Notes under the pieces: generated by a model
Databases searched by the model: none
What the model was told of the DNA's origin: nothing
Seen by the model: the letters and a program-made list of their open reading frames with translations, nothing else
Shown: in pieces, positions 3,932 to 46,347 of the stretch
Numbering within the stretch: position 1 is the stretch's first letter
Layout of the letters: each line of letters starts with the position of its first letter
Assembly: GCA_000806155.1 (NCBI GenBank)
Contig: JWKX01000008.1
Span: forward strand, 1-53,959
Direction: 5' to 3'
DNA from: an archaeon GW2011_AR18
GTDB taxonomy: Archaea > Nanobdellota > Nanobdellia > SCGC-AAA011-G17 > GW2011-AR18
Length of the DNA stretch: 53,959 nucleotides
Program-made: the position numbers and the translations under genes

Positions 3932-5263
3932 ATGAAATCTGATAAAAGAAGAAAATATTTCATTGATAAATATGAACTGAGAAAACTATATCAAAAAGAT
4001 AAATTATCAATGAACCAACTTAAAGAAATATTTAAATGTTCTAGAGGAACAATACAGTTTTGGTTAAAAAAATATAAAATAAAAATAAGAATATTAAATG
4101 AGGCTAATAAAACATCTAGAAAGCATTCTATAATAATAACTAAGGATGAATTGCAATCTGCTTATAATAATTGTAAGTCTATATCTAAACTATCTAAACA
4201 ATTTAATTGTAAAAATTGTACTATAATAAAGAGGCTTAGAGATTATGATATAACTCATAAATTCTCAAATTGTAGAAGATTCATTATACCCAAAGATAAA
4301 TTAGTGAAATTATATATTACTCAAAAACTAACAACATTTGAAATAGCTGATTTATTTGGTTGTTCTCAAGCTAAAATATGGAAATTATTGAAAAAATATA
4401 ATCTCAAATCCAGAAAATCTAAAGATTACCATTCTAATATCCCTACTAAGGATATATTAATTAAATTATATTTAAATAAAAAATTATCTACTTGGAAAAT
4501 AGAAAAATTCTATGGTTATAAAAGAGGAACAGTCCATAGGAAACTTAAGGATTATGGAATAAAATTAAGATCATCATCTGAATCACATATAATTTATAAA
4601 AGAAAAAGTTTTGATAAAGATATTTATGAAAAAGTATACTTAATAGGCTTTAGATTAGGTGACTTAAGGGTGAGAAAAACCGGAGAGACAATAAAAACTG
4701 ATTGTGCTTCTACTAAACCTGCTCAAATAGAATTGATAAAATCTTTGTTTAATGAATATGGTAGAGTATGGATAAGTGAACCAAGATTACGCAAGGATGG
4801 TAAAATCTGTGTAAATATAGAAGCATTTCTTGATCTTTCTTTTGATTTTCTACTACCTAAAGATAATTATGATTATATACTCGCTGATAAGATCACTTTT
4901 ACTTCTTTTTTGGCCGGATTTACAGATGCTGAAGGTCATATAGGTATACATGAAGGACAAGCTGTTTATTCATTAGGTAATTATAATATTAAACTTTTGA
5001 AAAAAATAAAATTACAACTTTTACATTATCTAAATATCAAATCATATATCCATAAATCTGAAATGACAAAATATATTAGAAAAGGGGGTTATCCTTATAA
5101 CTCTGATTATTATCAATTAACATTGTCTAAAAAAAGAGATTTGCTTACATTATTTGATAATATAGAAAGATTTATGAAACATGAGGATAAGCTTAATGAC
5201 ATAAAAGAAGCAAGGAATAATATTCAAGAGAGAAATGAAAAATTTGGATATATAAATATGTAA
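3932..5263 (+). CDS. Free-standing LAGLIDADG homing endonuclease with four HTH repeats
   Basis: The 443-aa protein has four similar helix-turn-helix units at about residues 12-52, 70-110, 120-161 and 172-213, each built as K-x-x-L-x-x-x-Y ... S/T-x-x-x-I ... F-x-C/Y-S-x-x-T-I ... LKKY. Two LAGLIDADG helices follow: LIGFRLGDLRV (236-246, weak) and LAGFTDAEGHIG (327-338, good, with the Asp/Glu catalytic position). It is not in frame with splicing blocks, so it is not an intein. Its stop lies one base before the metG start. The gene is probably a mobile endonuclease, or a former one kept as a DNA-binding regulator. I see no ribosome-binding site before its ATG. Confidence 0.82.
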   Translation: MKSDKRRKYFIDKYELRKLYQKDKLSMNQLKEIFKCSRGTIQFWLKKYKIKIRILNEANKTSRKHSIIITKDELQSAYNNCKSISKLSKQFNCKNCTIIKRLRDYDITHKFSNCRRFIIPKDKLVKLYITQKLTTFEIADLFGCSQAKIWKLLKKYNLKSRKSKDYHSNIPTKDILIKLYLNKKLSTWKIEKFYGYKRGTVHRKLKDYGIKLRSSSESHIIYKRKSFDKDIYEKVYLIGFRLGDLRVRKTGETIKTDCASTKPAQIELIKSLFNEYGRVWISEPRLRKDGKICVNIEAFLDLSFDFLLPKDNYDYILADKITFTSFLAGFTDAEGHIGIHEGQAVYSLGNYNIKLLKKIKLQLLHYLNIKSYIHKSEMTKYIRKGGYPYNSDYYQLTLSKKRDLLTLFDNIERFMKHEDKLNDIKEARNNIQERNEKFGYINM

Positions 5264-9249: not shown

Positions 9250-9510
9250 TTAATGGCACTTACCAGCCATACAACCCCATACAAACATCTTAAGACCACC
9301 TAAAACTAATAGTAAAACAACTACGTGTTCTAGAGTAAACCAAGAAGCCCAAGGCCAATTATTGCTACCTAATAATAAAACACCTAAAACTAACATAACT
9401 AAACCTTTACATACGTGCATTTTTCCCATACAACCACATTGTGACATAGGAACTTTGCACATAGGGCACATAGCACCACTACTCATACTTGTCTCTTTTT
9501 TTGCTGCCAT
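9250..9510 (-). CDS. Small Cys-rich membrane protein, 86 aa
   Basis: The N-terminal part has two close cysteine pairs (CPMCKVPMSQCGCMG) that could bind zinc or another metal. Two hydrophobic segments follow at about residues 36-50 and 61-80, and the C-terminus has another Cys set (WGCMAGKCH). The layout suggests a small zinc-ribbon membrane protein, possibly metal- or redox-related; I cannot name it. A strong Shine-Dalgarno sequence precedes the start, which is rare among the genes in this window. Confidence 0.6.
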   Translation of the reverse strand: MAAKKETSMSSGAMCPMCKVPMSQCGCMGKMHVCKGLVMLVLGVLLLGSNNWPWASWFTLEHVVVLLLVLGGLKMFVWGCMAGKCH

Positions 9511-9520
9511 TATTTAAATG

Positions 9521-9527
9521 ACCTCCT
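9521..9527 (-). promoter_or_regulatory. Strong Shine-Dalgarno for the Cys-rich membrane protein
   Basis: AGGAGGT lies ten bases before the ATG at 9510. It is a near-perfect anti-16S match, whereas many genes here appear leaderless. It fixes the start codon and suggests a highly translated small protein. Confidence 0.6.
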
Positions 9528-9579
9528 TTTTTGATAAATAAACTCTAGGAATACTTGTTTAAATGGTTTTCTAAAAGAA

Positions 9580-10056
9580 TTATTCTAAAGTTTTTTTAAA
9601 AGATTCTTTATTAAAATATATTAAGATAACAACCCAAAAGGCAATGTAAACAAAAATCCATCCAATATCCCATGCTGCGCCTTTAATATCTTGTAAAACT
9701 AAAACTCCTTTAAGATTTAGAGTATAAATTACATTGATCATATTCAAAATATCTTTAATTATAAAACCGATGGATCCTATAGCTATGAATTTTAATGAAC
9801 TTTCCTTTAAATTCCATACCTTCACACCGCCGATAAATACCAAAACTGCAGCAATCATAGATACTAAACCTGCAATAAGATCGAAGAATGTACTATTAGT
9901 CGTGACTTGAAAATATTTGCCTAATAAATATACTACCCATTGGTACCCCCAATAAGAGAAAAAAGAAACTGTAATTATAAATAAACTTATCGTCAGAAGT
10001 GACATTCCTGTTGGAAGACTCTTCTTTTTTATTTTTGACATATTATAAAAATTCAA
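9580..10056 (-). CDS. Four-helix membrane protein, 158 aa
   Basis: Four hydrophobic helices are predicted by eye near residues 18-40, 58-80, 88-110 and 128-150, after a basic start (MSKIKKK). The internal ATG at residue 6 may be the real start. No catalytic motif or family is recognised. The gene lies just downstream of tRNA-Ile on the same strand. Confidence 0.6.
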   Translation of the reverse strand: MNFYNMSKIKKKSLPTGMSLLTISLFIITVSFFSYWGYQWVVYLLGKYFQVTTNSTFFDLIAGLVSMIAAVLVFIGGVKVWNLKESSLKFIAIGSIGFIIKDILNMINVIYTLNLKGVLVLQDIKGAAWDIGWIFVYIAFWVVILIYFNKESFKKTLE

Positions 10057-10112: not shown

Positions 10113-10200
10113 TGGGCCCGCTGTGATTTGAACACAGAACCTCTGCCTTGCTGACTACAGATATCAGAGCAGAGCTATAACCAGGTTAAGCCACGGGCCC
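10113..10200 (-). tRNA. tRNA-Ile (GAT) with a 13-nt BHB intron
   Basis: The acceptor arm is GGGCCCG/CGGGCCC with discriminator A73, the D arm has a GGTTA loop, and the T arm is CTGTG/CACAG around TTCAAAT. The anticodon GAT is at 10163-10165, and the anticodon stem is CTGCT/GGCAG with one U-G pair. Acceptor identity and anticodon agree with archaeal tRNA-Ile. A 13-base intron sits at the canonical 37/38 position. The mature RNA is 75 nt and CCA is not encoded. Confidence 0.95.
10149..10161 (-). other. tRNA-Ile intron, position 37/38
   Basis: The intron fits an ideal bulge-helix-bulge. Exon CTGA (positions 32-35) pairs with intron TCAG; the 5' bulge is TA|T and the 3' bulge is CA|A, cut at the bars. 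A six-base loop, CTGTAG, closes the structure. It is close to the minimum possible intron size. Confidence 0.9.
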
Positions 10201-11041: not shown

Positions 11042-11139
11042 ATTATATAACTAATTTTAAGGTTTAAGAGTATTATCTAGAATTTTTTGTAAATCTTTCG
11101 GAAAACTTGTAAATATGAACGGCCTTGGGCAGACTCGAA

Positions 11140-11161
11140 TTCGACGGTTATTTTTTAACCT
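11140..11161 (-). other. tRNA-Asn intron 3, T arm, position 53/54 (22 nt)
   Basis: Exon CGGC (48-51) pairs with intron GTCG with one G-U pair. The 5' bulge is AG|A, the inner hairpin GGTTA/TAACC around AAAAA, and the 3' bulge AA|T. Excision restores GGCAG-TTCGAGT-CTGCC. No outer helix is obvious, so the motif is of the relaxed HBh' type. Confidence 0.82.
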
Positions 11162-11177
11162 CTGCCGACTTCTTGAT

Positions 11178-11191
11178 CGCTGCAAATAATC
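11178..11191 (-). other. tRNA-Asn intron 2, canonical position 37/38 (14 nt)
   Basis: Exon CTGT (32-35) pairs with intron GCAG including one U-G pair. The 5' bulge is TA|G and the 3' bulge CG|A. Excision leaves the anticodon loop CTGTTAA. Confidence 0.88.
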
Positions 11192-11213
11192 TAACAGTCA
11201 AGCGCTCTACCGA

Positions 11214-11233
11214 TTGCTCATCATTTTATGATT
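11214..11233 (-). other. tRNA-Asn intron 1, D loop, position 15/16 (20 nt)
   Basis: Exon GCTC (10-13) pairs with intron GAGC to give the four-base central helix. The 5' bulge is AG|A, the inner hairpin is ATCAT/ATGAT around AAA, and the 3' bulge is AA|T. Excision restores the canonical D loop AGTCGGTA. The intron GAGC is a copy of the exon 3' D-stem strand. Confidence 0.85.
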
Positions 11234-11266
11234 CTGAGCTACAAGGCCATTCAAAAATTAGGAACC

Positions 11267-11274
11267 CTATATAA
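11267..11274 (-). promoter_or_regulatory. TATA box for tRNA-Asn
   Basis: TTATATAG, preceded by an AT-rich stretch, is centred about 22 bases upstream of the tRNA-Asn 5' end. Confidence 0.5.
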
Positions 11275-11328
11275 TTTAAAAAGCTTTCCGTGAAAGAAAA
11301 ATTATAATAAATTTGATATAATAAAAAA

Positions 11329-19484: not shown

Positions 19485-22400
19485 TTATCCCACCTTTGAT
19501 ATAAAACCTTTCTTAGGTTCGAAAATTTCACCAGATTTTTTTAACTGATCAAGAGCTTCGTCAACTTTAGACTCATCGATACCTTTACTTAAAGCTTCTG
19601 TCATCAGAGTATCAAAAGGAATCATCTTCAAACCAGAAGAATCAAGATTATTAATAATTTCTTTAATGCCAATAATCCTTCCACGAGCTGAAGCTGTAAT
19701 ACCTGTTGTGATCCTATCCATATCAATCTGCCCAGACTCAGGATCAAAGCCTACTTGCATAAGACAATAGTTCAATATCTCAATAGCACGACGAGCATCT
19801 TCCTTGCCTGCTTTTTCATCTAGTCTTACTTTAGCAGAGGCTTCTGTTAACCTGATCAAACCTTCAAGTTGTCTTGCAGAAATAGGAATGGGTTTTATAG
19901 CATCATCTTTCATGCCTTTAGGATTCCTTAAAGAAACATAATAATTCTTGATTTCGTTAATAGCTGCCTTAGTTAATTTTGGTTTTATTTTTTGTTTAGC
20001 ATAAGCAATATATTTTCTCATAAACTGAATAGAAATATCAGTCTGGTAAGTCTCAGCTTTATTAGAAGTTTCAAGAACGTGCATAGCAATTTTCTCATCT
20101 TTCTCAATACTAGGAATATCCCTGACTGGGAAAATTAAATCAAATCTGTTAATTAAAGTACTGGGTAAATCAATCTGAGATGGAATAGGAGTGTAAGGGT
20201 CAAATCTCCCTAATTTAGGATTAGCAGCTGCTAATAAAGTAGTCTGAGCTGATAGAGTATTGCCTTGTATTGCTATCTTTCCATTCCTTCTTGTTATGAA
20301 AAAACCACTATCAGTTGCAAAACAAAATACTTTACCTTTATACTTAATCTTTTTAATAGACTTTTTATTTATTGTAAGTTGAATTCTATTACTTAATGTT
20401 ACCCTATACATCTTTTTTCTATTTGGACGATAATTTTCTTCATAGTGTGTATTAAGGCTTGCTGATTTTCCAATTAAACATGCAATTCCATGCATTAGAT
20501 TAATAAGATCCAAAGAAGTTGAACCATAAGCTTTATCATATTTAGAGCCATCATCTAACATCATAGCATTATAAAATATTTTTAATTGATTGCAAGACAG
20601 AGAAGCTAAATTTATAGAACAAGTTTTTTTATCATCTTTTCCGTTTGCATTATCCTTTATATAATTACATAATTGTGTGCATGTCATTTTGAACCAGACA
20701 TATTTTTCGTCCTTAATTTCTGTTAATTTACATCCTATATATTCTGATAACTTTTTTAGGCATTTCCTTATTTTATTTGCTTTAACACCATGTTTTTGAC
20801 TAATACCTATAGTTGGTTCTGTTTCTATACCACCTTCGCTTAAGTAGTAACCTAAAAATTCTAACCATAAATCCATAGGTATATTTTTGGCTACATGCTG
20901 ATGTGTGTACTTAGGATGAACTCTATTTTGTTTATGCTTTATTGCAGGCAGAACTAAATAATCAGCTCCAGAATTATTTATTTTAGAAGAATTAAGAAGT
21001 TTTATACGAGAATATGAAATATTTTGAGCTTCTACTACTGAAAACTCTTTATGTCTTGGTTCTTTAATCAACATCCTATGATTTGGCGTAACAAATATAT
21101 CATTTCTTTTATTTTTAAAATTGTACATCAAGCCGTTGAAGTTATAAACGTATAAACCATTGTGCTTCAAAAATTCTATTTTATCTTCTTTAGGGTAATA
21201 TTGAGCTATTTTTAAATCTTTGACTTCAGAATATTTTTTCCATCCTATTTCAGTTAATACTTCTGTATCTGAAGAGTAACATGCCTGAATGTTAGCTTTT
21301 GAAATTGCAACAATCTGCTGTTCCATAGCGGAGTGCAAAGATGATCTATCTTCAGGACTCATTTTATCAATTTCATCGACGCAGCAAATACCTTTATTTG
21401 CAAGAACCATAGCACCAGCTTCCAAACCCCAACCTTTCAGGAATTCATCTTTTACTACTGCAGCCGTGTTATGAACTAATAAACCGTTGACTATAAAATT
21501 ATGAGAATTTTCAACAGTAAGATCATAAACATATTCATAACCATGATCTTTAATTAATTCAATCTTAACTATCTTATCCCAGAATATATCTGAATCTGAA
21601 ATTAAATTTAGGGTTTTAATATTCTCATGTTTAATATCTTTTAAATCTTTTAATAATCTCTGCATGTAATCTCTACTAATCCCATTCTTATCTCTTCTTT
21701 TCAATATTTTTATCCCTAAATCTTTTTCTACTTTGGCAATTAATTTCCTTGCATTTGGTATTATGTCAATATTAGTATCATATCTTTTTATTTTATTTAT
21801 TATCCTATCTAATTTTTCTTTCTTTTCTGGGTGATTAAATCCTATAAATTTCTTAAATAATTCTAAATTCTTTTTTCCATTAATTATTATTGCAAATTTG
21901 TTCTTCTTGCTATTAACTTTTTTGTTAGGTCTTGCTTCCTTTTTTCTTATCTTAGAATGAATACCATATCTCAAAAGCACTAATTTAAGTTTTTCTGAAA
22001 AAATCTTACTTGTTGAACTGCTTTCTACATGATGTGATCCTTTCTTTGTTCTTTCTATACCACCACCATCAGTATCAAAATAACCTTTCAAATAATTTGA
22101 TAATAATTCGTTATTCACTTTTAAAAGTTTATTACTCATATCAATCTTATCTGATTTTGGAGATAAAGGCAGACCTAACTCTTCTAAAATCTCAAAAACT
22201 AATTTTGAACCAAACCTCCAGGCTTCAGGTCTTTTCTCTGAATTAACACTTGAAATATTAGGTTTTACATTAAACAACTTTTTAGATAAATAAATAAAAT
22301 CCTCTATTAATTTTCTGTTGCTGTTTGAAAATCTTATTGTTACAGTATTTTTTTCTTTTGTAAGATCACCATCTCCAGCAATCAAACCTGCAAAGTATAA

Positions 22401-24167
22401 AAATTCCCCATCAACATATTTAGGTATCTCAATTGGATGCCCATTATATAATGAACATTTAATCTTTTCATCCATAATATATTCTAAACTTGTACCTGAA
22501 TAATCAGCTAATTTTCTAAGATTATTTAATTTTATATTACCTCTTGCTTCCTTTTTCACCCAATTATGATATATACTTAATTCTGAAAAATCAAGTTCTT
22601 TAGCTAAAATTCTTTTATTTATATTCATTTTTTTGCATGATTCTTCTATCAAAAATTTAACTTTGTCTTTAATATTATGAATAACTGGATTGGATTTTAT
22701 TAAGTCTAAACAAAAAATCTTATGTTCATTTTCAGGGAAATTTAAATTTCTAGATGAAGCTAGATATTCATTTTCTGAAAACTCTGAAGCTTCTTTCCAT
22801 ACAAGATCCTGTGAATATAGTTTTGTATTTGTAGTGACAATAACCTGTTTCCCACTCTGAGTTGTTACTTTAATCATGTATTCTGGTGGTGAAATTCTCC
22901 ATAACTGATTAATCTCTTTAGGTCTAATCTTAAAGTTTTCATCTAAAGTAAAGATTTTCTTATCAGATCTAGGATTAGATGAGTTCCAGACATCTTTAGT
23001 ATAAGACTTGCTGTAATCTTTGAGATTTTCTTCAACAATATCCTTAATCTTATGAATACCACCAGGATTAGTCACTATTAAACTATCAGGAGCAATACAT
23101 AAACCAGCACCAGACGCTGAAGTACCAGAAATAAATCTTGCTTTAGGAGCTGCTTTTGAAATAAAAGTCATTAAAGTAGATTTAGCACTACCTGGATCTC
23201 CAATCAATAATACATGAATATCTCCTCTAGTTCTAGTGCCATCAGGTTTTTCTTTACGAACACCACCCATCAATTGCAACACAAGACCCTCTTTTATTCT
23301 CTCATGACCATAAACACTAGGAGCAATAGCTTTAGTAAACTTCTCATAAACTAAAGGATCTCTAGAAACTTCAAGAATTTTTTGTTCATCTTCATTAGAT
23401 AAAAGAATATCAGAAAAATCTTCCTGAACTGCTTCTATATGATTAGCTTCAAGAATAAGATCATACCTCGTTGACTGAGCTCCTGTCTTTAATTGAATAG
23501 GAACTTCTTTAACAAGACCATAAATATTAATTCTACTACCAGGAGCAGTTTTCTTTTCCATCTTAGGTTCTACAAGATCTTCTTTTAAGAAAACACTTAA
23601 CCTCTTAGGCTGCTCTCCACCTTCTAAAGATTCTGGAGCTTCTTCAATTTTCAAATGCTGAACATCAATCAAATCCTTAGATAATAAACGGAATTTTCCA
23701 CGCCAACCACAAGTGCATCTAGAAGGTTCTTTAAATTTACTATCAATCTGCAGAATAGAAATAGAATTACCACAGCCAGCACATTCAAATTTAGCATTAG
23801 TAATCTGGGGACGAACATCAGAGGCTTGTCTTACAATACCCTCCATAACAAGGAATTTACCTAAGTGTTCACTTCTCACATCACTTATACGCATAAGCTG
23901 TGAATCAGGAAGATTTCTGAATCTAATTCTAGATAATTTAGTGTTCTTAGGAAGATCAAATTGTTCTAAAGATAATTCAGCTGCACGAATTGTATCTTCA
24001 GGGTCATCTAATAGGCTACTTGCTAATTCAGGATCATACTGAGTTAATTCTTTAAAATCAAGAACCAAAGATTTCTTACCCTGATTTGCAAGATCATGCA
24101 TCTTAGTATTATAATGAGCATCAATAAATTCCTTAAACCTTGTAATCTGTTCGTTAGCTTCCATCAT
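19485..24167 (-). CDS. mcm: Replicative helicase MCM precursor with two inteins
   Basis: After splicing, the MCM extein is about 675 aa (356 + 62 + 257 residues). The N-terminal domain has a zinc site (CAGCG and CTCG). The AAA+ core has Walker A GDPGSAKS near residue 323, Walker B CCVDEIDKM, sensor 1 AAANPKLGRFD, and the arginine-finger block LINRFDLIF. A winged-helix C-terminus follows. Intein 1 lies after ASGAGL and intein 2 after NIQA; both are followed by Thr. These are conserved sites in the ATPase core. A second ATG at residue 2 is an equally good start. The RPA-like gene follows three bases later. Confidence 0.97.
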   Translation of the reverse strand: MMEANEQITRFKEFIDAHYNTKMHDLANQGKKSLVLDFKELTQYDPELASSLLDDPEDTIRAAELSLEQFDLPKNTKLSRIRFRNLPDSQLMRISDVRSEHLGKFLVMEGIVRQASDVRPQITNAKFECAGCGNSISILQIDSKFKEPSRCTCGWRGKFRLLSKDLIDVQHLKIEEAPESLEGGEQPKRLSVFLKEDLVEPKMEKKTAPGSRINIYGLVKEVPIQLKTGAQSTRYDLILEANHIEAVQEDFSDILLSNEDEQKILEVSRDPLVYEKFTKAIAPSVYGHERIKEGLVLQLMGGVRKEKPDGTRTRGDIHVLLIGDPGSAKSTLMTFISKAAPKARFISGTSASGAGLCIAPDSLIVTNPGGIHKIKDIVEENLKDYSKSYTKDVWNSSNPRSDKKIFTLDENFKIRPKEINQLWRISPPEYMIKVTTQSGKQVIVTTNTKLYSQDLVWKEASEFSENEYLASSRNLNFPENEHKIFCLDLIKSNPVIHNIKDKVKFLIEESCKKMNINKRILAKELDFSELSIYHNWVKKEARGNIKLNNLRKLADYSGTSLEYIMDEKIKCSLYNGHPIEIPKYVDGEFLYFAGLIAGDGDLTKEKNTVTIRFSNSNRKLIEDFIYLSKKLFNVKPNISSVNSEKRPEAWRFGSKLVFEILEELGLPLSPKSDKIDMSNKLLKVNNELLSNYLKGYFDTDGGGIERTKKGSHHVESSSTSKIFSEKLKLVLLRYGIHSKIRKKEARPNKKVNSKKNKFAIIINGKKNLELFKKFIGFNHPEKKEKLDRIINKIKRYDTNIDIIPNARKLIAKVEKDLGIKILKRRDKNGISRDYMQRLLKDLKDIKHENIKTLNLISDSDIFWDKIVKIELIKDHGYEYVYDLTVENSHNFIVNGLLVHNTAAVVKDEFLKGWGLEAGAMVLANKGICCVDEIDKMSPEDRSSLHSAMEQQIVAISKANIQACYSSDTEVLTEIGWKKYSEVKDLKIAQYYPKEDKIEFLKHNGLYVYNFNGLMYNFKNKRNDIFVTPNHRMLIKEPRHKEFSVVEAQNISYSRIKLLNSSKINNSGADYLVLPAIKHKQNRVHPKYTHQHVAKNIPMDLWLEFLGYYLSEGGIETEPTIGISQKHGVKANKIRKCLKKLSEYIGCKLTEIKDEKYVWFKMTCTQLCNYIKDNANGKDDKKTCSINLASLSCNQLKIFYNAMMLDDGSKYDKAYGSTSLDLINLMHGIACLIGKSASLNTHYEENYRPNRKKMYRVTLSNRIQLTINKKSIKKIKYKGKVFCFATDSGFFITRRNGKIAIQGNTLSAQTTLLAAANPKLGRFDPYTPIPSQIDLPSTLINRFDLIFPVRDIPSIEKDEKIAMHVLETSNKAETYQTDISIQFMRKYIAYAKQKIKPKLTKAAINEIKNYYVSLRNPKGMKDDAIKPIPISARQLEGLIRLTEASAKVRLDEKAGKEDARRAIEILNYCLMQVGFDPESGQIDMDRITTGITASARGRIIGIKEIINNLDSSGLKMIPFDTLMTEALSKGIDESKVDEALDQLKKSGEIFEPKKGFISKVG
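20259..21281 (-). mobile_element. MCM intein 2, 341 aa, with a weaker LAGLIDADG domain
   Basis: The intein begins with Cys1 (CYSSDTEVLTEIGWKKYSEV) and ends in RRNGKIAIQGN before extein Thr. The penultimate residue is Gly instead of His, a known variant. The endonuclease helices LEFLGYYLSEGGIE and FYNAMMLDDGSKY are more diverged than in intein 1. It is unlike intein 1 in size and terminal blocks, so the two arrived separately rather than by duplication. Confidence 0.92.
21468..23099 (-). mobile_element. MCM intein 1, 544 aa, with LAGLIDADG endonuclease
   Basis: The intein begins with Cys1 (CIAPDSLIVT) and ends in NFIVNGLLVHN before extein Thr, so all splice-junction residues are present, including the penultimate His. 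Endonuclease helices are LYFAGLIAGDGDL and YLKGYFDTDGGGI, both with the acidic catalytic residue. A helix-turn-helix-like segment (RILAKELDFSELSIYHNW) lies before the endonuclease. The insertion site ASGAGL|T is inside the conserved MCM core. It looks functional for splicing and possibly for homing. Confidence 0.94.
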
Positions 24168-25848: not shown

Positions 25849-28695
25849 TTATTGTTTGTTAAAACCAATCTTAAACTTCTTCTCTTTAATATCACCTTCA
25901 GAATTAAATTCAGAATCTTGCATCTTGAATTCTAAAACTGAGGCACCACATTTATCTGCAATAGATTTTTTATATTTATCAAGATCAACATCGAACTCAA
26001 TAAATAATTTAATAGAATCTTCTTTCTTCAATCCTGACTTCTTTCTTAAATCTTGAATTCTTCTCATAATCTCCCTAGAAAAACCTTCATTCTCTAATTC
26101 AGGAGTAAGCTTAGTATCTAATTCAACTTCACCATCAGAGAACTGAACACCTAAAATCTTATCATCAATGGATCTTTTTTTAGATCTGAAAATAACCTTT
26201 TTAACATTCAACTGTTTTTCAATCAATTCAGAAAACTTTCCTAAATCTTTTAATGATTTTGCATCATCATAAATATTAACAGTCACCGATGATAAAGGCC
26301 AACGAACACCAATCCTTTCTTTGTCTCTCGATGATAAACCTGCCTGAATTATTTCAAAAATAAGATTCATATTAGACAATAAATCTTCATCAATCAATTT
26401 TTCATCAGCTACAGGCCATTTTTCTAGATGAATTGATGGTTTGTTATAGACTTCAAGATTAATCTTTTCTGCAGTAAATGGAAGGAAAGGTGCTAACAAA
26501 ACAATAGCTTCAAAGTAAGAATCATAAAGAACTTTTTGAACTTTAGGATCCTCCAAACTATCTCTTATAGCCTGAACATAAGCCTTAGACAAATCAGATA
26601 TCAGAAACTTTTTTATTTCATCAATTGCCTTATAGTATTCAAGACCATCCATAAATTTAGTAACATCTAACTTCAGTTTTTCCTTTTTTGATAAAATCCA
26701 TAAACTAGCCTGATCATTACTAGAAGACTTAGAAGGATTAGTGCAACTTTGCTTAACATAATTTGCAAGATTATAAATCACTAAAAGATTTCTTTGAATT
26801 TCTTTACCTGGAGCATAACCAAAATTAAGATTATACTGAGGATTCTGAGAACAATACTGCCATCTCATAACATCAGCACCCATCTTCTGGACAGCTTCAT
26901 CGAACCATATAGCATTACCCTTACTTTTATGCATTGATTCACCTTTCTCATCTCTTACTTCTTCATAACATAAAACTCTTTTATATGGAGCAACACCTTC
27001 AAGGACAACTGACATGAATAACTGAGCGTAGAACCAAAGCCTTACCTGAGCTCTCATCTCTATTTCTAAATCAACTGGGAACCACTTTTTCCAATAATCC
27101 CTATCTTCAAAATATTTCATTGTAGAAAATGGAACAATACCTGCATCAAGCCAACAATCCCCTACTTCCTTAACTCTCTCAATAGGTTTACCACATTTAC
27201 ATTTTATCTTAATATCATCAATCCATGGACGATGCAATTCTGGAAGAGAATCAACAGCTTTTTTATCAATTGCCTTTTCTTTCAATTCTTTCAAAGAACC
27301 AATAACTTCAGTATTTTTACAGGAATCACATTCATAAAACATCAGAGGAAGACCCCAATATCTTTTTCTTGAAATATTCCAGTCTTCCATGTTATCAAGC
27401 CAATCCTGCATCAATTTACCGACATGTTCAGGATACCAGACAACTTTTGCAGATTCTTTTTTCATAATAGGTCTTATCTCATCACAAGAAATAAACCATG
27501 AAGAGTCTAATCTAAAGACTAATTCTTCTTTACATCTCCAGCATATAGGATAACGATGCTTATAGTTCTCAACTTTGAATAAAATACCCCTCTTATCTAA
27601 ATCTTTAACAATATCTTTTTTAACATCCTTAACATTCTTCCCTGAGAGCCAACCGTAACCTTTATTGTAATTACCAAATTCATCTAAAGCAGCATCTATC
27701 AACTTTAATTTTAGTTTTTTACCTAATTCATAGTCAGCATCACCGCAACTAGGAGCAATATGAACAATACCTGTACCATCTTTCTCTCCGACTTCATCCC
27801 AGGGGATTACTCTAGGATTATTTCCTTTCTGGACATCAATCTCAGGATAAAAATTTTCATACTCAATACCTATAAGATCAGAACCTTTTATAGTCCCTAA
27901 AACAATACAATCGCCAAGTTTATTCACAACAGCTTCGGATATATAATAAATATTTCCTTCTTTACTGACTTGAGAATAATTAATATCAGGGTTAACTGCA
28001 GCAGCTATATTACTAGATAATGTCCATTCAGTTGTAGTCCATATCAATAAATATTCATTATCCCTATTTTTTATTTTAGCCTTAATATAAACAGAAGGGT
28101 GAACAAGATCTGCATAACCCTCATCACTCATCTCATGCTTTGATGAACTTGTTCCACATCTTATACACCATGGCAGTATCCTTTTACCCTTGTAAAGCCA
28201 GCCTTTTTCGTGACATTTTTTCAAGAAGAACCAAATAGACTGAATATTATCATCATTCATAGTAAAATAGTCGTTGCCCCAATCCATCCACTGACCTAAT
28301 AATTTTGATTGATCAGTTTGTATCTTAGAAAATTTTTCAACTCTTTCTCTACACGCTTTTGAGAATTTATCAAGCCCAAAATTTTCAATATCCTTCTTAG
28401 AATTAAAACCTAAATCCTTCTCTGTCTCTACTTCCAACCATAAACCCTGACAATCAAAACCATTCTGGTAACGCTGATCAAAACCCTGCATTGCCTTATA
28501 TCTTTGAAATAAATCCTTTAAAGTCCTACCCCATGCATGATGAACACCCATAGGATTGTTAGCTGTTATAGGACCATCTAGAAATGAGAAATTTTCTTTA
28601 TTTTTGTTTCTTTTCCTTAATTTGTCAAATATCTTATTTTTGTCCCAGAACTCTAAAACTTCTTTTTCTGTCTCAAAACCATTATAACTGACCAT
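25849..28695 (-). CDS. ileS: Isoleucyl-tRNA synthetase
   Basis: The 948-aa class I enzyme charges tRNA-Ile. The HIGH-type motif is PMGVHHAWGRTL near residue 50, the KMSKS motif is MHKSKGNAIWF, and the CP1 editing domain is present (WTTTEWTLSSN and GTGIVHIAPSCGDADY). Zinc-type Cys pairs occur in PWCIRCGTSS and ICWRCKEE. The anticodon-binding and C-terminal regions are shorter than the roughly 1,030 residues common in archaea. The WTTT-E variant replaces the usual WTTTPW. It has its own promoter divergent from the TRAM gene. Confidence 0.95.
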   Translation of the reverse strand: MVSYNGFETEKEVLEFWDKNKIFDKLRKRNKNKENFSFLDGPITANNPMGVHHAWGRTLKDLFQRYKAMQGFDQRYQNGFDCQGLWLEVETEKDLGFNSKKDIENFGLDKFSKACRERVEKFSKIQTDQSKLLGQWMDWGNDYFTMNDDNIQSIWFFLKKCHEKGWLYKGKRILPWCIRCGTSSSKHEMSDEGYADLVHPSVYIKAKIKNRDNEYLLIWTTTEWTLSSNIAAAVNPDINYSQVSKEGNIYYISEAVVNKLGDCIVLGTIKGSDLIGIEYENFYPEIDVQKGNNPRVIPWDEVGEKDGTGIVHIAPSCGDADYELGKKLKLKLIDAALDEFGNYNKGYGWLSGKNVKDVKKDIVKDLDKRGILFKVENYKHRYPICWRCKEELVFRLDSSWFISCDEIRPIMKKESAKVVWYPEHVGKLMQDWLDNMEDWNISRKRYWGLPLMFYECDSCKNTEVIGSLKELKEKAIDKKAVDSLPELHRPWIDDIKIKCKCGKPIERVKEVGDCWLDAGIVPFSTMKYFEDRDYWKKWFPVDLEIEMRAQVRLWFYAQLFMSVVLEGVAPYKRVLCYEEVRDEKGESMHKSKGNAIWFDEAVQKMGADVMRWQYCSQNPQYNLNFGYAPGKEIQRNLLVIYNLANYVKQSCTNPSKSSSNDQASLWILSKKEKLKLDVTKFMDGLEYYKAIDEIKKFLISDLSKAYVQAIRDSLEDPKVQKVLYDSYFEAIVLLAPFLPFTAEKINLEVYNKPSIHLEKWPVADEKLIDEDLLSNMNLIFEIIQAGLSSRDKERIGVRWPLSSVTVNIYDDAKSLKDLGKFSELIEKQLNVKKVIFRSKKRSIDDKILGVQFSDGEVELDTKLTPELENEGFSREIMRRIQDLRKKSGLKKEDSIKLFIEFDVDLDKYKKSIADKCGASVLEFKMQDSEFNSEGDIKEKKFKIGFNKQ

Positions 28696-45168: not shown

Positions 45169-46347
45169 GTGGCAAAAATAGCAGGGCAAGACAGAGGGAA
45201 AAAAATAGCTGCTTTATTATTAGTTGTTGCAGCTTCAGTATTTGGATTAAGAGAGATAACTACAAGAATAATGAGAACTCCAGCTCCAGTGCAAATAGAA
45301 CAAAAAGAGGAACAAAAAGCTACACCACTGCCAGTTGAACAAATTAATGCTAAAACTAAAGATAGAATAACTGGATTAGAAAAAATAAGAAAACTTTCAG
45401 AACAACTAGAAAAAATAATCGCAGAAACTAAAAAATTGATTGATAAAAGAAAATATGAAGAAGCAGTCAACATGATTCAAAAGTCATATGATGTTGAAAA
45501 ACAAATTGATGAAACAAGAGAATTATTGTATAATAAACACTTAATAGATTCATGGGAAACTTTTGAGATTGGAGATAAAATATCTAATATAAAATCTAAA
45601 CTTAATCCACTAATAGAACTAATAAAAGATAATATATCTATAAAGGATACATCTTATATTAACAGATATTTAAGAGATCCAGGTGATACAGTTTCATTAT
45701 TAATTTCTGTATGCCAAAAAATATTTAATTTTAGCCCTATGATAGGAGATTTTAATTCTAATATAAATATCAAAAGAAACAATGGAAGTAATGATAAATT
45801 AAAATTTGAATATCATGATAAAAACCATACATTCTATGTTGATCGTGGGCAAATAAAAAATCCTAATATCATGATAACAATGACAGAGAACATAGCTAAA
45901 ACATTTCTATTCTCAAAAGAACCAAACGAACAGTTAAGAGCTGCATTAAAAAATGGAATGATAAGATATGAGATAAATAAGAAATGGCTAGTAGAACATG
46001 GAAAAGATGTGATGAACACTAATCTAGATTTAATGGTTGGACATGCGAAATCATTAATAGGAAATTTTACTGCAAATTTACAGTTCAAGAGATTAAACAA
46101 TAATATAGATAAGATAAAACTTGTTTTTGAGGATGAGAAAATAAAAGTATTAGATTATGGAACTCTTGAAGATTCTGATATTGATATTTTTGTGGATGAG
46201 AGAACAGTCATTGATATCTTGTTATCAAAAACACCAAATGAAATATTCAAGCAAAGCCTGAAATCTGGAGGAATAAAATATTTAGTTAATAGTTTATGGC
46301 TAAATGTGAAAGTAAAATTAGCAATGGCTTTTCTTATAGGAGACTGA
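45169..46347 (+). CDS. Membrane-anchored coiled-coil protein with two SCP2-like repeats
   Basis: The start is GTG. One membrane helix (IAALLLVVAASVFG, 13-26) is followed by a coiled coil (65-125) and two similar domains at about 196-275 and 300-385. Each repeat has a strand set, then KTFLFSKEPNEQLRAALKNG or DILLSKTPNEIFKQSLKSGG followed by a final strand-helix. This resembles the sterol-carrier SCP2 fold (G-x-l-x-p-x-x-A-x-x-G-x-i-k), which binds lipids. The match is by eye. A TATA-like TTTATAAAAG is only about ten bases before the GTG, so the start is uncertain. Confidence 0.65.
   Translation: MAKIAGQDRGKKIAALLLVVAASVFGLREITTRIMRTPAPVQIEQKEEQKATPLPVEQINAKTKDRITGLEKIRKLSEQLEKIIAETKKLIDKRKYEEAVNMIQKSYDVEKQIDETRELLYNKHLIDSWETFEIGDKISNIKSKLNPLIELIKDNISIKDTSYINRYLRDPGDTVSLLISVCQKIFNFSPMIGDFNSNINIKRNNGSNDKLKFEYHDKNHTFYVDRGQIKNPNIMITMTENIAKTFLFSKEPNEQLRAALKNGMIRYEINKKWLVEHGKDVMNTNLDLMVGHAKSLIGNFTANLQFKRLNNNIDKIKLVFEDEKIKVLDYGTLEDSDIDIFVDERTVIDILLSKTPNEIFKQSLKSGGIKYLVNSLWLNVKVKLAMAFLIGD

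Follow-up and report, generated by a model that had tools for sequence, protein, structure and literature searches.

A tRNA-Asn gene with three predicted bulge-helix-bulge introns in a Woesearchaeon

Structure of the gene and of the mature tRNA

In a stretch of archaeal DNA of 53,959 nucleotides (hereafter the window; GC 30%), we find what is very probably a functional tRNA-Asn(GTT) gene, apparently the sole one of a Woesearchaeon, whose single precursor is predicted from its letters to carry three cis-spliced introns of the bulge-helix-bulge (BHB) type. The gene occupies 11120..11248 on the minus strand (11248->11120), coordinates that are exact and were read directly from the letters. An earlier note on this DNA had proposed a tRNA-Asn split by three introns of 20, 14 and 22 nt, with 73 nt left after their removal, and these sizes proved exact, the inserts following tRNA positions 15, 37 and 53 (Table 1). 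The gene therefore has more than one intron, some of them outside the canonical site (15/16, 37/38 and 53/54). On the minus strand, with the introns in inner brackets, the precursor reads GGCCTTGTAGCTCAG[aatcataaaatgatgagcaa]TCGGTAGAGCGCTTGACTGTTA[gattatttgcagcg]ATCAAGAAGTCGGCAG[aggttaaaaaataaccgtcgaa]TTCGAGTCTGCCCAAGGCCG; its 129 nt are made up of 73 nt of exon, in four collinear pieces, and 56 nt of intron.

The spliced 73-mer, GGCCTTG TA GCTC AGTCGGTA GAGC G CTTGA CTGTTAA TCAAG AAGTC GGCAG TTCGAGT CTGCC CAAGGCC G, forms 21 of 21 stem pairs in its acceptor, D, anticodon and T stems and has every invariant base, with a discriminator G73 and no encoded CCA. When parsed with a strict intron-aware scanner that allows one intron per arm, it reached the maximum score (34/34). 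RNAfold recovered the acceptor, D and T arms of the mature 73-mer, and paired the anticodon region differently.

Table 1 Features of the tRNA-Asn locus and its neighbours, in positions of the window
Feature	Position	Strand	Basis or remark
TATA-box-like sequence TTTAAATTAT, 23-32 nt upstream of tRNA position 1	11271..11280	-	Putative, inferred
Exon 1, tRNA positions 1-15	11234..11248	-	Sequence and cloverleaf parse
Intron 1, 20 nt, D loop 15/16	11214..11233	-	Relaxed HBh' BHB
Exon 2, positions 16-37, anticodon GUU	11192..11213	-	Sequence and cloverleaf parse
Intron 2, 14 nt, canonical site 37/38	11178..11191	-	hBH / BHL type BHB
Exon 3, positions 38-53	11162..11177	-	Sequence and cloverleaf parse
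Intron 3, 22 nt, T arm 53/54	11140..11161	-	HBh' BHB
Exon 4, positions 54-73	11120..11139	-	Sequence, parse and match to relative
Free-standing LAGLIDADG homing-endonuclease-like ORF, 271 aa	10226..11041	-	PF14528, E 7e-4, below curated cut-off
tRNA-Ile(GAT), one 13-nt intron at 37/38 (10149-10161)	10113..10200	-	Downstream, same strand as tRNA-Asn

A bulge-helix-bulge at each junction

The earlier note had placed a BHB at the ends of every insert, and all three junctions do have a 4-bp central helix between 3-nt bulges. At junction 15/16, an AG^A bulge is combined with a 5-bp intron hairpin (AUCAU/AUGAU), a central helix GCUC/GAGC and an AA^U bulge, and junction 53/54 is built in the same way from an AG^A bulge, a 5-bp hairpin (GGUUA/UAACC), a central helix CGGC/GUCG and an AA^U bulge. 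At 37/38, the central helix CUGU/GCAG lies between bulges UA^G and CG^A, the 5-bp anticodon stem serves as the outer helix, and there is little intron helix. With an outer exon helix at 37/38 only, and a 5-bp intron helix at 15/16 and 53/54 only, these are relaxed forms of the motif. Shuffling the introns gave chance probabilities of 4.5e-5 (15/16), 0.016 (37/38) and 2.3e-4 (53/54) for the individual motifs, and a joint probability of ~1e-10 if the junctions are independent.

One insert, most likely that in the D loop, might instead be removed in another register or be retained as an enlarged D loop, leaving a gene with really two introns. The borders of the D intron do allow a second BHB register, with an 18-nt intron and a 10-nt D loop, and junction 15/16 has no outer exon helix. 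Removal of 20 nt, however, yields the usual 8-nt D loop, as is also present in intronless tRNA-Asn orthologues, and other genomes, and a tRNA-Phe too, keep the frame of this intron, AG^A...GAGC-AA^N, along with a compensated hairpin (see below), making the two-intron reading extremely unlikely.

For the gene with three introns, we propose that each intron pairs with a bordering exon strand that would be displaced from the cloverleaf, namely GCUC in the D stem, CUGU in the anticodon loop and CGGC at the T stem. The precursor would thus hold BHB motifs, each a 4-bp helix between 3-nt bulges, where the finished arms would otherwise be. The splicing endonuclease EndA would cut every bulge between its second and third nucleotide, the ligase RtcB would most likely join the exons and, with the introns gone, the displaced exon strands would re-pair as the cloverleaf. 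In this scheme we infer transcription, cleavage, the order of removal and the identity of the EndA involved. Since the outer exon helix is absent at the D and T junctions, an EndA of narrow specificity would not be expected to cut there.

Detection of the gene and the role of chance

Generic tRNA finders, which the earlier note had suspected might miss the gene, did so: in the window, ARAGORN reported only the neighbouring tRNA-Ile, and Rfam had no match to the tRNA-Asn at its gathering threshold or even at E<=10. If three free gaps are allowed, tRNA-like pieces might also come together by chance. Indeed, with a looser scanner that grants more intron freedom, tRNA-Asn scored 28.0 against at most 27.0 in 20 shuffles of 365 kb of genome sequence, and at genome scale a perfect cloverleaf by itself exceeds chance only modestly. 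With the strict scanner, however, 40 dinucleotide shuffles of the window yielded nothing above its thresholds. Moreover, BHB geometry, the match to orthologues and shared intron positions are not part of the scanner score, and the reading as tRNA-Asn is secure because there is a BHB at all junctions, the exons match an intronless relative and the intron positions are shared with orthologues. Chance assembly is refuted by these orthologues, and we regard its probability as negligible.

Interrupted tRNA genes in the host genome

A DPANN-type host, as had been supposed from the letters of the window, is supported by the topoisomerase VI-A gene adjoining tRNA-Asn, whose closest matches are Woesearchaeota metagenome-assembled genomes (MAGs; 80-95% identity). 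The genome (G000) comprises 822,540 bases in 17 contigs and is ~90% complete. We parsed 19 of its tRNA genes, gathered with Rfam, with a T-loop pattern and by scanning ~44% of the genome, a partial survey in which some of the boundaries and anticodons are manual assignments. Introns are present in 16 of the 19, the exceptions being Thr(CGT), Phe(GAA) and Arg(ACG). tRNA-Lys(TTT) apparently has three introns, at 30/31, 37/38 and in the T loop (C1:41970-42117, minus; locus L195), Arg(CCT) has D and T introns, Glu(TTC) anticodon and T-arm introns, Tyr(GTA) two introns, Arg(TCT) and Gln(TTG) D-arm introns, and Ala(TGC) a T-loop intron. On this partial count, the mean exceeds one intron per tRNA gene, against published means of 0.21 for 217 archaeal genomes and of 0.84 for Thermoproteales (PMC8450103). 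An ordinary tRNA model found 14 tRNAs only in G000.

The tRNA-Asn gene could also be a decaying pseudogene with short insertions, an intact copy being encoded elsewhere in the genome, and with ~90% of the genome assembled such a copy could have gone unseen. Against this, the exons are flawless, with 21/21 pairs and all invariants, the insertions fall exactly in BHB registers, the same style of interruption is seen in most of the other single-copy tRNAs of G000, and no second tRNA-Asn, for which the earlier note had advised a search, was found in the 822 kb available. A pseudogene is thus very unlikely.

As a separate observation, G000 has a multi-intron tRNA that is best read as tRNA-Ile(TAT) (C1 near 45290-45435, plus; locus L195). 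TTATAT anticodon loops with introns are found in the related genomes G035 and G013 too, hinting at Ile(UAU) decoding as in Nanoarchaeum equitans.

Orthologues and a series of intron states

The spliced 73-mer matches intronless Woesearchaeal tRNA-Asn genes, with 86% identity over 70 nt in G026 (E 1e-16) and 77% in G035 (E 4e-10); tRNA-Asn is likewise intronless in G019, G016, G031 and G006. Other relatives have introns in this tRNA, at 30/31 and 37/38 in G007 and G023, at 17/18 and 30/31 in G010, and at 15/16, 30/31 and 37/38 in G009 and G025. In the case of G018, four BHB introns are predicted, at 15/16, 30/31, 37/38 and 43/44 (C4 near 27202-27244, minus; locus L011). After splicing, the intron-bearing orthologues have 20-21 of 21 stem pairs, and nearly all of their junctions have the full 4-bp central helix, with 3 of 4 pairs in two anticodon-loop introns (G023 and G018). 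From these predicted structures, heavily interrupted tRNA genes are common in Woesearchaeota.

The 15/16 intron recurs between genomes, its frame AG^A...GAGC-AA^N being invariant in G000, in the tRNA-Asn of G009, G025 and G018, and in the tRNA-Phe of G036. Within this frame the hairpin is formed from different pairs in four sequences (AUCAU/AUGAU, GCGUU/AAUGC, CGCUA/UAGCG and AACAU/AUGUU; tRNA-Asn of G000, G009 and G025, and tRNA-Phe of G036), a pattern that indicates compensatory change across genomes. The compensation was read from the individual structures, as MAFFT left the D-intron hairpins out of register. In G018, the frame is kept and the hairpin is down to 1 bp.

In the genomes of the 13 nearest topoisomerase VI-A (TOP6A) records, all matches to the precursor DNA were short and attributable to chance or coding sequence, no close orthologue was found, and tRNA-Asn does not lie beside TOP6A in relatives. 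A search of a phage collection gave no match. Some further matches, including a short, exact one to the anticodon region (L012), fell in coding DNA and were set aside.

The inserts might belong to a different class altogether, that is, to a split or permuted tRNA or to a self-splicing group I intron rather than to cis-spliced BHB introns. The clade does have group I introns, as in the tRNA-Asn of G014. The exons of the gene described here are, however, contiguous and in order within 129 nt, the inserts of 14-22 nt are far too short for a ribozyme, and the window has no match to RF00028 or any other Rfam intron, so that the likelihood of such an arrangement is practically nil.

The G014 intron lies in the anticodon loop of tRNA-Asn (RF00028, E 2.7e-21; C34 near 9412-9780; locus L146, 1548-1762). 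The 39 archaeal group I introns of one report are all in rRNA (PMC6125680), and no group I intron in archaeal tRNA is listed in another (PMC4033280).

A possibly related intron in cbf5

The cbf5 gene of G000 (C2, complement near 300-420, near the contig start; locus L197) has a 21-nt insert with in-frame stops. This insert forms a BHB with central helix CACU/AGUG and outer helix GGGA/UCCC, and its removal, read by hand, restores the frame GTLDPGVTG. Because of this restored frame, BHB splicing is evidently active in G000, unless its conserved cbf5 is dead. A cbf5 BHB intron at the same point (GTL|DP) is found in three Woesearchaeota, G000, G022 (L013/L173) and G038 (L181).

The hairpin GGTTAAAAAATAACC is exactly common to the cbf5 introns of G022 and G038 and to the T-arm intron of tRNA-Asn, and occurs nowhere else in the 1.0 Mb examined, part of which was selected because of this match. 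Set side by side, the T-arm intron (A-GGTTA-AAAAA-TAACC-GTCG-AA) and the cbf5 intron of G022 (A-GGTTA-AAAAA-TAACC-AAGG-AT) agree in length, hairpin and register, and differ only in the exon-pairing strand and the last base. The T-arm intron of Arg(CCT) in G000 also starts with AGGTTAA and ends with CGAA. Taken alone, the match between T-arm and cbf5 introns has an E of ~0.01 per genome, with 40 genomes searched, and is suggestive of shared ancestry.

Splicing machinery

An RtcB ligase is encoded in G000 (C16:488-1798, E 4e-167). EndA was not found in this assembly, either with PF01974 or by alignment of the EndA of relatives, 38 of 40 of which have a match (G012 and G035 being the two without). 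In relatives of the same family, EndA lies between RNase Z and a winged-helix gene, and both of these are also not found in G000, while the same queries easily find the family counterparts (53-59% identity across the family for RNase Z). Since the flanking genes are missing along with it, the simplest reading is that the missing EndA is probably an assembly gap. A link between loss of EndA and loss of introns was considered and dropped, as G012 and G035 have introns in anticodon loops yet no EndA match.

The EndA proteins of relatives keep the catalytic Tyr, His and Lys. They are encoded by one gene of about 170-250 aa, are closest to the alpha subunit of N. equitans EndA (3IEY_A, E 4e-37), ahead of M. 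jannaschii alpha4, and are not of the ~390-aa epsilon kind. Nearly every relative, including genomes of one or two contigs, has one PF01974 gene above the cut-off, and no clear beta partner was found in them. Where the A. pernix EndA is ~10 residues longer, a relative's EndA has no insertion; we take this A. pernix stretch to be the crenarchaea-specific loop (CSL).

The EndA of N. equitans is of (alpha-beta)2 form and broad in specificity (PMC6379350), and alpha4 EndA is described as restricted to canonical motifs (PMC4033280). The earlier note had called for an endonuclease of broad specificity, which is reasonable with two of the three motifs in the relaxed HBh' form; as to the EndA type it asked after, no EndA was found in G000 and one gene was found per relative. 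Either a divergent EndA beta subunit exists in Woesearchaeota, or their one-gene EndA handles relaxed motifs. Because the relatives seem to have a single EndA gene, the group can be used to test whether, as the rule has it, such motifs are tolerated only by EndA of the two-subunit or epsilon type.

Comparison with known systems

Multi-intron tRNA genes were described in Thermoproteales (Pyrobaculum, Thermofilum) by Sugahara 2008 and Fujishima 2010, as cited in PMC8450103 and PMC4033280. At most three introns per gene are stated for them (PMC8450103), and the earlier note likewise called three-intron tRNAs established there. As in these, several short introns of the BHB type interrupt individual tRNAs here, in the D, anticodon and T regions; the motifs are relaxed and the introns are spread over many tRNAs. 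The present genes differ in their host, a Woesearchaeon (DPANN) rather than a crenarchaeon, in the prediction of four introns for the tRNA-Asn of a relative, and in the EndA of relatives, which is without the crenarchaea-specific loop insertion. Nor is the arrangement as unusual for DPANN as had been supposed, since multi-intron tRNAs are tabulated for N. equitans and ARMAN-1/2 (PMC4033280) and such introns are common here and in relatives. N. equitans and ARMAN-1/2 are likewise DPANN hosts with relaxed BHB motifs, and their broad-specificity EndA is (alpha-beta)2 or epsilon2, whereas Woesearchaeal EndA is a single gene with no clear beta found and is not epsilon.

Outside the archaea, tRNA-Ile(UAU) of Cyanidioschyzon merolae has the same three-arm layout, with introns in the D, anticodon and T arms (PMC9602550), in this case in a eukaryote with a three-subunit Sen-type endonuclease (PMC6379350). 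The crenarchaeal cbf5 pre-mRNA intron, described only for Desulfurococcales and Sulfolobales (PMC2738675), is of the same BHB splicing class, and is paralleled by the cbf5 introns of G000 and two relatives; the tRNA-Asn case differs from it in being a tRNA and not an mRNA.

Among the open-access papers searched, the only one that we found on tRNA introns in Woesearchaeota concerns a group I intron. EndA-spliced multi-intron tRNA is already known as a kind, and what is newer is the Woesearchaeota-wide pattern and the predicted four-intron relative. More speculatively, and with somewhat less than even confidence, Woesearchaeota may form a second radiation of hyper-interrupted tRNA genes that is largely undescribed, with up to four BHB introns per tRNA, a one-gene EndA without the crenarchaeal loop, and introns that are mobile among tRNA genes and even reach an mRNA gene. 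The tRNA-Asn genes of related genomes, with zero, two, three and four introns, provide a natural series for the study of intron gain and loss. Heavily interrupted tRNA genes thus occur in a large archaeal group of reduced genomes, where standard finders miss many of them, and claims about completeness or codon decoding that are based on tRNAs are therefore unreliable for such genomes.

Neighbouring genes in the window

The LAGLIDADG-like ORF lies exactly between tRNA-Asn and tRNA-Ile, and inside neither tRNA. The anticodon of tRNA-Ile, GAT, was assigned by hand, ARAGORN giving 'gata'. Elsewhere in the window, a 443-aa ORF (3932-5263, plus), immediately upstream of a methionyl-tRNA synthetase-like gene, combines helix-turn-helix repeats with a LAGLIDADG_3 domain. 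Finally, the MCM helicase gene (19485-24167, minus, 1560 aa) contains intein splicing and LAGLIDADG domains, apparently from two inteins.
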